From: Mycolicibacterium madagascariense
GTDB taxonomy: Bacteria; Actinomycetota; Actinomycetes; Mycobacteriales; Mycobacteriaceae
Direction: 5' to 3'
Assembly: GCF_010729665.1 (NCBI RefSeq)
Contig: NZ_AP022610.1
Coordinates: 3,658,001-3,722,000 of the forward strand
Length of the DNA: 64,000 nucleotides
Both the position numbers and the translations under genes were made by a program. The notes beneath the pieces were generated by a model, which had not been told where the DNA came from, made no database searches, and worked only from the letters and a program-made list of their open reading frames with translations. Below, one piece after another: positions 14,982 through 17,260 of this stretch. The stretch's first letter is position 1; the number at the start of each line of letters is the position of its first letter.

Positions 14982-15050
14982 TCGACTCTGCGGTGAGGGC
15001 GTGCCTCACCGAGGCTCTCCCGCACTTCTGCGCCCTCACCGCAGAGTCGA
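14982..15050 (-). terminator. Large hairpin between the fusion gene and rnpB
   Basis: A perfect 20-bp inverted repeat: TCGACTCTGCGGTGAGGGCG (14982-15001) and its complement (15031-15050), with a 29-base loop. It lies 10 bases after the stop of the minus-strand oxidoreductase-methyltransferase gene, so it probably terminates that transcript. It also abuts the rnpB promoter. No U-tract follows. It could instead be one copy of a dispersed repeat. Confidence 0.55.
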
Positions 15051-15059
15051 CGCCGAACC

Positions 15060-16625
15060 CTAGTGGCGGCGCAGCACCATGACGTTGTCGCGCCAGGTGA
15101 AGGGTTCCCCGTCGGGCCCCGTGCCATCGCGGTCCACCTGCTCGACGCGCAGGCGATCCCATTGTCCGGCAGGCAGATTCAGCTCGGCCAGCACCTCCTC
15201 CGGGCTGGGGAACGGGTGGTCGTGCGGAATCTTCTTCGCGAACGGCGGGGCGGCGGCATGGTCGACGATGACGAGCAGGCCGCCGGGCGCCACCGCCTCC
15301 GCCGCGCGACGCAGGATCCGAGGCCGTTCGAGACGCACCGTCGAGTGCAGGAACTGCGCGGAGATCAGGTCGTAGGTGCCCGCGGGGAAGGTGTCGGACA
15401 GGTCGTGGCGTTCGAAGCGGATCTTGTCGGAGACGCCGCGGCCCTCGGCTTCGGCGGCGGCCCGCTCGAGGGCGGTGTCGGCGACGTCGACCGCGGTGAC
15501 CTGCCAGCCGCGTTCGGCGAGCCACACCGCGTCGCCCCCTTCCCCGCAGCCGAGGTCGAGCGCCCGGCCCGCGACGAGGTCGCCCGCGATGACGGCGAGC
15601 TGAGCGTTGACCCTGCCGCTCCAGATCTTCTCCCGTTGGCCGTAGTGCGCCTCCCAGTAGGTCTGCGCCTCCGACGTCGGCCATGGCGGCACGGGCAGTC
15701 CGAAGTCGTCGCCGAGCAGGCTCTGGACGATCGCCGCACCGGCCAGCGAGCCCGTCGCGATCGAGGCCGCGACCTGGGGCATCTGCGAGCAGACGTCACC
15801 GGCGGCGAAGACACCCTCGACCGAGGTGCGCTGGAACGCGTCGACCTGCAGTGCGTCCGCGACGACCGGGCCCGCGGCCGCCGTCGCGACCCCGAGCTGC
15901 GCCGCGAGCGGCGAACGCTGGTGCAGTGACGTGGCGACGAGCACCCCCGCGCGGGCGAGGCGGGTTCCGTCGGCGAAGACGACCTCGCGCAATTCACCTG
16001 CTGCGCCGACGAATTCAGTGATCTTCCGGTCGTCGACCCTGACCCCCGCTGCGGTCAGCGCCGCCGACTGCTCGGCATCGAGTTCGCTGCCGCCATTCGG
16101 TAGGACCACGACGTCATCGGTCCAGCCGCGCAGCATGAGCGCCATGTGCACCGCGCGATCCCCGTCGGCGAGCACCGCGAGCGGCTGGTCGCGCATCTCC
16201 CAGCCATGACAGAACGGACAGTGGAACGCCGATCTCCCCCACAGCTCCGCCAACCCGGGCAGCTCCGGCGCCCGGTAGGTCATCCCGGTCGCCAGCAGCA
16301 CCTTCCGCGCGCGCACGCGGCTGCCGTCGGCGAGTTCGAGTGCCAGGCCGTCCGTAGCTGCCCTACCCGTGACCACCTCACCCCGGCGAACCTCGACGCT
16401 CGGATACGCCTGCAGTTCGGTGCGACCGGCGTCGTAGAGCGCGGACGGCGGCTGACCGTCGTGCCCGAGCAGCCCGCCGATCCCCGGTGCCGGGAGGTTG
16501 CTCTGCGCACCGGCGTCGACCACCAGCGTGTGCCGCCTGGCCCGCCCCAACGCCAGTGCCGCACTCAGACCCGCCGCTCCGCCACCGACGACGACGCAAT
16601 CCCATTCGTTCGCTTCGTGATCCAT
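15060..16625 (-). CDS. Fused thioredoxin-reductase-like flavin oxidoreductase and SAM methyltransferase
   Basis: 521 residues, two enzymes in one chain. Residues 1-310 are an FAD/NAD(P) disulfide oxidoreductase: dinucleotide site VVVGGGAAGLSAALALG, a CPFCHGWE redox-Cys motif near residue 136, and a second FAD segment ending GVFAAGDVCSQMPQ. Residues 330-521 are a class I methyltransferase with ALDLGCGEGGDAVWLAE near 358 and a VTAVDVAD segment. CPFCHGWE resembles the GliT/HlmI dithiol oxidases more than the CATC of thioredoxin reductase, so the chain may oxidise and S-methylate small dithiols (inference). ATG 16625 is chosen because the FAD fold starts there. Divergent from the XRE-cupin gene by 47 bases. 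Confidence 0.9.
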   Translation of the reverse strand: MDHEANEWDCVVVGGGAAGLSAALALGRARRHTLVVDAGAQSNLPAPGIGGLLGHDGQPPSALYDAGRTELQAYPSVEVRRGEVVTGRAATDGLALELADGSRVRARKVLLATGMTYRAPELPGLAELWGRSAFHCPFCHGWEMRDQPLAVLADGDRAVHMALMLRGWTDDVVVLPNGGSELDAEQSAALTAAGVRVDDRKITEFVGAAGELREVVFADGTRLARAGVLVATSLHQRSPLAAQLGVATAAAGPVVADALQVDAFQRTSVEGVFAAGDVCSQMPQVAASIATGSLAGAAIVQSLLGDDFGLPVPPWPTSEAQTYWEAHYGQREKIWSGRVNAQLAVIAGDLVAGRALDLGCGEGGDAVWLAERGWQVTAVDVADTALERAAAEAEGRGVSDKIRFERHDLSDTFPAGTYDLISAQFLHSTVRLERPRILRRAAEAVAPGGLLVIVDHAAAPPFAKKIPHDHPFPSPEEVLAELNLPAGQWDRLRVEQVDRDGTGPDGEPFTWRDNVMVLRRH

Positions 16626-16666
16626 GACGTCCACCTTGCCGATCCGAACGCGAACTGCCAACATCT

Positions 16667-16683
16667 TTTGCCATGCAGGCAAA
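16667..16683. promoter_or_regulatory. Palindrome over the XRE-cupin start codon (candidate operator)
   Basis: TTTGCC-ATGCA-GGCAAA, a 6-bp perfect dyad with a 5-base centre containing the ATG (16673) of the regulator. It lies in the divergent region between regulator and fusion gene. The position suits repression by the XRE protein of its own gene and perhaps of the fusion gene; no experimental support is visible from sequence. Confidence 0.4.
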
Positions 16684-17260
16684 GAGCGCCGAGGACGTGG
16701 ACCTAAGGGTCCGTCGGCGGCTACGCGAACTGCGCACCCAGCGGGGGCTGACGCTCGAGGAGGTGGCCACCAGGGCCGACCTCGACGTGTCGACGCTGAG
16801 TCGGCTCGAATCGGGCAAGCGCCGCCTGGCGCTGGACCATCTGCCCCGGTTGGCCGCGGCGCTCGCGGTGAGCACCGACGATCTGCTGCGTGCGCCGGAC
16901 ACGGAGGACCCACGGGTCAGGGGCACGGCGCACACCCGCCACGGCGTGACCTATTGGCCGCTGACCAACGACGGGCCGGCCGCCGGACTGCACGCGTTCA
17001 AGATCCGGGTCAGCGCGCGCCGGCGCACGCCGCCCGACGTGCTCCCCGTGCACGACGGTCAGGACTGGATGTACGTCCTCGCCGGACGTCTGCGGCTGAT
17101 CCTCGGCGAGCGCGACTTCACGATCAAACCCGGTGAGGCCGTGGAGTTCTCGACGTGGACGCCCCACTGGTTCGGTGCCGTGGACGGTCCCGTGGAGGCG
17201 GTGGCGATCTTCGGTCCGCACGGGGAACGACTGCACCTGCACCGCGACGAAGGGGCCTAG
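16673..17260 (+). CDS. XRE-family regulator with C-terminal cupin
   Basis: 195 residues. The N-terminal helix-turn-helix (about 13-67) reads LRELRTQRGLTLEEVATRA, followed by the recognition helix VSTLSRLESGKRRL. A cupin beta-barrel occupies about residues 110-185 (DGQDWMYVLAGRLRLILGE, then FTIKPGEAVEFSTWTPHWFGA), which in this family senses a small ligand. It is divergent from the oxidoreductase-methyltransferase fusion and probably controls it. Its stop overlaps that of the convergent RNase H gene by four bases. Confidence 0.9.
   Translation: MQAKSAEDVDLRVRRRLRELRTQRGLTLEEVATRADLDVSTLSRLESGKRRLALDHLPRLAAALAVSTDDLLRAPDTEDPRVRGTAHTRHGVTYWPLTNDGPAAGLHAFKIRVSARRRTPPDVLPVHDGQDWMYVLAGRLRLILGERDFTIKPGEAVEFSTWTPHWFGAVDGPVEAVAIFGPHGERLHLHRDEGA

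Follow-up and report, generated by a model that had tools for sequence, protein, structure and literature searches.

A 64,000-nucleotide stretch of the Mycolicibacterium madagascariense genome (NZ_AP022610.1, positions 3,658,001 to 3,722,000; here the window) encodes at 15060-16625 on the minus strand, stop codon included, a protein of 521 residues in which a disulfide oxidoreductase is continuous with a class I S-adenosylmethionine (SAM)-dependent methyltransferase. The gene is divergent from that of an XRE-family regulator with a helix-turn-helix (HTH) and a cupin domain, in the following REG (195 residues; 16673-17260, plus strand). Comparison with relatives indicates that REG, oxidoreductase and methyltransferase form a conserved set, of which the fusion represents one state, a picture beyond what the single window shows. 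The three genes appear to behave as one regulon; this is new here, whereas the fusion is already annotated by NCBI. Two routes for disarming dithiol antibiotics and fungal epidithiodiketopiperazine toxins, oxidation and S-methylation, are described in the published work cited below, each carried out by separate proteins. In many bacteria one protein seems to combine the two, controlled by a single switch. The fusion probably disarms reactive sulfur compounds, and regulators of the REG kind accompany such enzymes in many actinobacteria, including a holomycin-type gene cluster. REG and its palindrome provide a means of finding such genes, and through them a specific methyltransferase emerges as a candidate for the enzyme that S-methylates holomycin.

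The two halves of the fusion

The frame is free of stops over its whole length, as the initial annotation had described it, and Pfam domains and full-length homologues agree with a fused gene. The oxidoreductase half covers residues about 8-304 (15714-16604, minus strand), with the Pfam model Pyr_redox_2 at residues 9-292 and the aligned redox motif CPFCHG at residues 136-141 (16203-16220, minus strand); C136 and C139 are kept in 23/23 aligned fusions. A flavin-dependent disulfide oxidoreductase with a CxxC-H-G motif had been predicted and was recovered. The methyltransferase half, residues 316-521 (15063-15680, minus strand), is matched by Pfam class I methyltransferase models at residues about 349-466 and carries a full motif I, LDLGCGEGGD; a complete class I methyltransferase had also been proposed. 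Within its own genome the fusion protein has one full match, the remaining nine matches not exceeding 46 bits.

A single-sequence search of the PDB ranked 3fbs (194 bits), DepH (180), 4ntd (177), 4fk1 (160), 7br0 (117), GliT (110) and 5nii (80) above lower-scoring chains. With a profile built from 20 family members 4ntd came first (339 bits), followed by 3fbs (295), DepH (275), 4fk1 (232) and GliT (187), and further down by 7br0 (160), 5nii (151), Gll2934 (148) and 2a87 (122), the last of which we take to be TrxB of Mycobacterium tuberculosis. The chain 4ntd is presumably HlmI, in agreement with the HlmI search in the presumed Streptomyces genus reported below. The PDB labels of 4ntd and 4fk1 are (putative) thioredoxin reductase and that of 3fbs is oxidoreductase; apart from 4ntd and 4fk1, 5nii is the best-scoring chain labelled thioredoxin reductase. 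In a tree of 68 oxidoreductase rows, seven TrxB rows separated at 100/100 support, while DepH, 3fbs, HlmI and 4fk1, the latter as a long branch, fell among the oxidoreductases of the module; eight TrxB-like rows lacking CxxC (L092-L099) were aligned and left off the tree. The oxidoreductase of the window belongs to a clade of 19 (100/99), 18 of the same genus and one of another genus of the family, and therein to a fused subclade of five (96/87). The motif CP[FY]CHG is present in the aligned oxidoreductases except L038 and 4fk1 (D replaces H). The motif HRRxxxR, which we take to be the NADPH motif of TrxB and which occurs in the seven aligned TrxB rows, is missing from the aligned oxidoreductases, that of the window included. 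The NCBIfam TrxB model TIGR01292 gave 91.9 bits, below its cut-off of 343.45; cut-off, motif and tree together rule out a TrxB-type thioredoxin reductase. The sequence comparisons support an assignment of this half to the DepH/HlmI/GliT-type dithiol oxidases. Kinship with GliT and HlmI had been proposed in the initial annotation, which named a firm grouping with thioredoxin reductases as the outcome that would overturn it; the oxidoreductase did not fall with TrxB and the proposal stood, GliT having been scored and kept off the tree.

The best profile matches of the methyltransferase half in the PDB include Slr1183, a Methanosarcina methyltransferase, phosphomethylethanolamine N-methyltransferase 2, MitM, Rv0560c (presumably N-methylating) and thiol methyltransferase 1; of the 56 PDB sequences that the profile matched with E values up to 1e-8, none was a chain named GtmA. 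The Pfam model TPMT scored 35.6 bits on the window protein (cut-off 26), with five generic methyltransferase models above it, and matched 24/24 members of the methyltransferase family, as did seven other methyltransferase models. The Pfam cut-off for TehB was passed as well; the scores of the NCBIfam TehB models were far below their cut-offs (44.4 vs 303, 41.7 vs 218 and 31.3 vs 219.5 bits), and a tellurite methyltransferase TehB was rejected on these scores. Sulfur as the target of the methyl group is suggested by the partnership with the oxidoreductase and not by the sequence. Thus, of the earlier proposal that one protein combines both dithiol routes, the part on the oxidoreductase family held, and the part on a methyltransferase acting on sulfur or on the substrate of the oxidoreductase found no backing in its generic matches.

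REG, its palindrome and the extent of the module

REG and the fusion gene are separated by a spacer of 47 bp (16626-16672), and Pfam assigns to REG an N-terminal HTH_3 (residues 17-71) and a C-terminal Cupin_2 (126-180), in accordance with the divergent HTH-cupin regulator initially described. Also confirmed was a palindrome over the REG start codon: TTTGCCATGCAGGCAAA at 16667-16683, of the operator-like form TTTGCC-N5-GGCAAA, lies across the ATG at 16673. Visual inspection of the mycobacterial spacers that were listed showed an extra half-site, TTGGCA (16656-16661, minus strand), between the palindrome and the start of the fusion. The exact palindrome occurs once in the 5.94-Mb genome, at this locus. 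With up to one mismatch it was found at 8 places, the window site included, vs 1 for a reversed control pattern; the seven one-mismatch sites, looked at for overlapping frames alone, gave no clear further target.

The core TTGCC-N5-GGCAA was present in 58/58 spacers between REG and oxidoreductase genes (42 exact, 14 with one mismatch, 2 with two), taken from 61 loci with REG after L014, L016 and L083 had been left out for their other layout. Among 1,160 dinucleotide shuffles of the spacers none had an exact copy and 1.0% had one with a single mismatch, so the palindrome is not a product of chance. In mycobacteria it overlaps the REG start codon, and the common N-terminus of their REGs, M-[QEK]-A-[KN], is encoded by one of its halves. 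Many other genera have it outside the coding part of REG, thus it is not a mere by-product of coding. The palindrome also precedes genes of the module that have no REG at their side: it was upstream of 7/9 fusions lacking REG within 1.5 kb (6 exact, 1 with one mismatch) and, with 0-2 mismatches, of 12/14 methyltransferase genes without REG in the stretch examined (9 exact). Methyltransferase genes with REG at the same locus had it in 9/9 cases (7 exact). Lone mycobacterial oxidoreductases had no exact palindrome and one with a single mismatch in 2/33 cases, and four of ten other lone oxidoreductases had a one-mismatch copy; the background, taken from random windows of 250 bp at the same loci, was 0.65% with an exact and 1.25% with a one-mismatch copy. 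From the conservation and position of the palindrome we infer that REG binds it and acts as a repressor.

The cupin domain of REG has H127, H165 and H188 in 21/21 aligned homologues and an acidic residue at position 131 in 20/21. Cysteine is absent from 19/21, which rules out a conserved cysteine redox switch. Given the conserved histidines and acid and the rarity of cysteine, the signal is more likely to be a small ligand, or else a metal bound to REG. Induction through the cupin regulator, as first suggested, is plausible, a conserved cysteine redox sensor is not.

Matches to the fusion protein were found in 170/201 genomes of the family (E up to 1e-40), 213/297 of the genus (1e-60) and 191/394 of the class (1e-50), lone oxidoreductases and lone methyltransferases included. 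Among the matches listed (of 3,887 relatives) 91/120 had both domains, and some relatives bear the NCBI name "bifunctional NAD(P)/FAD-dependent oxidoreductase/class I SAM-dependent methyltransferase". This NCBI family holds the same mycobacterial protein; its name is domain-based and silent on substrate, regulator and operator. Among the papers listed by literature searches none dealt with the fusion. The loci compared were the best-scoring 30 per genome search and the best 80 of 256 named loci, hence they lean to close kin; the genomes are related and the named and other sets partly overlap. REG lay within 1.5 kb in 51/60 fused loci (window included), 10/12 loci with oxidoreductase and methyltransferase split and 0/4 loci with a lone oxidoreductase. 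Among the 80 named loci it stood beside 30/30 fusions, 17/17 pairs in separate frames (among them L137, which has the appearance of an interrupted fusion) and 0/31 lone mycobacterial oxidoreductases; the remaining loci with REG were one methyltransferase without oxidoreductase (L132) and one truncated oxidoreductase without methyltransferase (L163). Split forms are found in other genera, mostly with REG, and organisms with named loci include Mycolicibacterium, Microbacterium, Leucobacter, Micromonospora, Kitasatospora, Geodermatophilus, Blastococcus and Sphaerisporangium. All nine genomes with a fusion lacking REG within 1.5 kb encode REG elsewhere. At E up to 1e-40 REG was found in 10/10 genomes with the fusion vs 1/20 mycobacterial genomes without a match to oxidoreductase or methyltransferase (Fisher p 3.7e-7, relatedness ignored). 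The 20 were the first of 84 such genomes. The sole REG-positive genome among them, and the only one re-examined for both enzymes (G245), actually holds REG, oxidoreductase and methyltransferase side by side, missed by the match search. No fourth partner family was present in more than 4 of 24 loci by a crude clustering of frames picked by GC content at third codon positions, in which some strands are probably wrong and REG itself was recovered in 11 only.

On the oxidoreductase tree the fused or unfused state needs 7 changes, counted without distinction between fusion and fission; for the fused label, well-supported branches require at least 5. All 33 named mycobacterial module loci, fused or split, keep at least one of the flanking genes for a CYTH-CHAD protein and an RNase H/phosphatase; as these loci share one or both flanking genes, recent horizontal capture in mycobacteria is unlikely.

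Some loci deviate from the common layout. In L014 and L016 the module is rearranged, REG lying between the two enzymes, convergent to the oxidoreductase and divergent from the methyltransferase. The metagenome-assembled Mycobacterium locus L132 (629-1878) has a REG of 91% and a methyltransferase of 78% identity with an exact palindrome, and no oxidoreductase between them. Fusions of interrupted appearance were seen in M. septicum (L137), where some 0.75 kb separates the oxidoreductase and methyltransferase matches and their frames differ, and in M. houstonense (L163), where oxidoreductase residues 1-248 alone match and the methyltransferase is absent. Mycobacteria also have a second clade of lone oxidoreductases (31 loci among L123-L180), 57-62% identical to that of the window and located away from the module site.

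HlmI and a holomycin-type cluster

One genome (G1249), presumed from the origin of HlmI to be a Streptomyces, encodes HlmI at 98% identity. A REG (269 bits; Pfam HTH_3 and Cupin_2) faces its hlmI at about 0.2 kb by match ends, with a one-mismatch palindrome between them. In the fetched stretch the gene order is LuxR-type, condensation domain, thioesterase, REG, HlmI, major facilitator superfamily (MFS) pump, globin, flavoprotein, condensation-adenylation-carrier nonribosomal peptide synthetase (NRPS), GMC oxidoreductase and thioesterase; acyltransferase and acyl-CoA dehydrogenase would lie beyond it. The Streptomyces clavuligerus cluster, as given in the cluster section of its report, comprises ORF3495 (condensation), 3494 (thioesterase), 3492 (HlmI), 3491 (MFS), 3490 (globin), 3489 (PPC-DC decarboxylase), 3488 (NRPS), 3487 (FMN oxidoreductase) and 3486 (thioesterase), whereas for ORF3493, in the same place as REG in G1249, that section gives no function (PMC3826145). 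By gene order the G1249 cluster matches the published holomycin cluster, and the genome is not necessarily that of S. clavuligerus. In the REG tree the hlmI-facing REG nests among REGs that belong to fused modules, its neighbour being the REG of the fusion L083 of the same genus (97/90). REG is divergent in 9/12 fetched loci closest to HlmI; at two such loci (G1059 and G1060) no NRPS was present in the ten neighbouring frames.

HlmI is reported to use O2 for the oxidation of reduced holomycin, and S-methylated intermediates to pile up in an hlmI mutant (PMC3826145); S. clavuligerus has HlmI and an S-methylation backup whose enzyme is described as unidentified (PMC3826145, PMC10500201), and in the words of a 2023 review the enzyme bis-thiomethylating dithiol holomycin "remains to be discovered" (PMC10500201). 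G1249 contains a lone methyltransferase gene facing another REG, again with a one-mismatch palindrome. By its regulation alone, this methyltransferase is a candidate for the holomycin S-methyltransferase. The start of a third REG of this genome (L298:5354-7460) is preceded by a palindrome-like site; a PIG-L gene of the same orientation adjoins this REG, and beyond it lies a rhodanese gene on the opposite strand; the rhodanese was dropped as a REG target, since the PIG-L gene sits between.

A more far-reaching proposal, which we put forward tentatively and regard as rather doubtful in its full extent, is that an actinobacteria-wide dithiol-response regulon of REG and TTGCC-N5-GGCAA lent the holomycin cluster its oxidase and regulator, that a methyltransferase of the regulon bis-S-methylates dithiol holomycin, and that the fusion would be a one-protein sink closing or capping the dithiol. 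REG may sense the loss of a metal bound by its cupin, as zinc is reported to be chelated by reduced gliotoxin (PMC10500201) and zinc starvation to induce dnoP (PMC11317636).

Proposed function and alternatives

We consider it slightly more probable than its contrary that fusion and REG form an inducible system for the disposal of reactive small thiols or dithiols by oxidation and S-methylation. REG would be a ligand- or metal-binding repressor seated on TTGCC-N5-GGCAA operators. Once a reactive small-molecule thiol or dithiol accumulates, REG would release the operator and the fusion would be produced; such a compound could be a dithiolopyrrolone or an epidithiodiketopiperazine in reduced form, made by microbes nearby. 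The FAD/CxxC half would then convert the dithiol to the disulfide in a fast, reversible step with O2 or another acceptor, while the methyltransferase half would cap thiols irreversibly with methyl groups of SAM.

The presence of both arms in the fusion is modelled on described systems. HlmI resembles the window oxidoreductase as its top profile match, by its CPYCHG motif, the absence of HRRxxxR and a divergent REG-family partner in a holomycin-type cluster; it differs in having no fused methyltransferase, in its location inside a biosynthetic cluster and in its subclade. DepH (4nte, 4jn9) and 3fbs are the top single-sequence matches of the window protein and share its motifs, however their matched chains have no methyltransferase, and DepH is described as forming the disulfide in romidepsin and as using NADP+ (PMC3826145). 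In Aspergillus the oxidase GliT and the S-methylating GtmA/TmtA act on the same dithiol, and loss of GliT and GtmA leads to hypersensitivity (PMC5356443). The likeness lies in the reversible oxidation and the S-methylation of one dithiol in A. fumigatus; the difference in two separate proteins, a producer organism and a more distant oxidase sequence (GliT, 187 bits). DnoP (PA4170), compared here by its description, is a dithiol oxidase for defence in the non-producer Pseudomonas aeruginosa, but its induction is by zinc starvation and the cited parts of the report mention no methyltransferase (PMC11317636).

Several observations weigh against a dithiol-disposal function. The window oxidoreductase does not group with HlmI, and its deeper placement with DepH and 3fbs is weak (90/71). 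The reported NADP+ use of DepH means that the loss of HRRxxxR is not proof of O2 use. The matches of the methyltransferase are generic, MitM, Rv0560c and thiol methyltransferase 1 scoring alike. Oxidase and methylase would compete for one dithiol, so that a fusion of both needs explaining. REG also occurs with oxidoreductases without methyltransferase (L203, L208) and with methyltransferases without oxidoreductase, and in the nine REG-oxidoreductase pairs closest to HlmI the palindrome has one mismatch in one (hlmI itself), two in two and three in six. HlmI-like oxidoreductases are encoded in 327/392 genomes of the presumed Streptomyces genus, far more than the known makers of dithiol antibiotics, thus the common substrate may be wider or an endogenous thiol. 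Finally, the whole case for the function of the fusion protein is built on sequence.

This abundance in the presumed Streptomyces genus also favours the strongest competing explanation, house-keeping sulfur homeostasis, in which the substrate would be an endogenous or common thiol (H2S, methanethiol, persulfides or a breakdown product of mycothiol) and no antibiotic. The flanking genes kept at 33/33 mycobacterial module loci, as expected of a vertically kept gene, and the similarity of the methyltransferase to TPMT in 24/24 rows are in line with it. However, the patchy distribution among mycobacteria and the loci with the oxidoreductase or the methyltransferase only are more suggestive of an accessory trait, and for the characterised relatives HlmI, DepH, GliT and DnoP the described substrates are dithiol natural products (PMC11317636, PMC3826145). 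We regard homeostasis as a real, although less probable, contender. The disposal reading differs in the direction of its redox step from a third explanation, in which the oxidoreductase would reduce a disulfide toxin and the methyltransferase would trap the thiols. By reasoning, this would account for the fusion, as one half would make the substrate of the other, but the HRRxxxR motif is missing from the aligned oxidoreductases and the nearest characterised kin, as far as cited here, oxidise; we deem it improbable. Still less credit is given to a tailoring enzyme for a small natural product not yet known: HlmI and DepH are biosynthetic enzymes in the cited reports, but natural-product biosynthesis genes were absent from the ten neighbouring frames scanned, as the initial annotation had noted, and the clustering of 24 loci, a weak test in view of the many loci in which it missed REG, showed no additional family at over 4 of them. 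Detoxification of metalloids, in which tellurite or selenite would be reduced and methylated, is the least probable of all, since the passing of the Pfam TehB and TPMT cut-offs by the methyltransferase half is set against NCBIfam scores far below cut-off for TehB and for MerA (47.8 vs 454.45 bits) and the absence of metal genes from the ten neighbours.

These ten adjoining frames encode WS/DGAT, panB, enoyl-CoA hydratase, CYTH-CHAD, RNase H/phosphatase, zinc ribbon, NIF3, HAD, LMW-PTP and SURF1 proteins. Outside the actinobacterial loci, relatives of both enzymes at about 40% identity are encoded in overlapping frames on a proteobacterial conjugative plasmid, p_IV of Paracoccus aminovorans (L234), with no REG match within 9.5 kb. 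Elsewhere in the M. madagascariense genome (contig 1, about 15018-15644, minus strand; L002), a frame has the TrxB motif CATCDG and an N-terminal part unlike the FAD-binding start of TrxB, possibly a broken frame or an assembly error.

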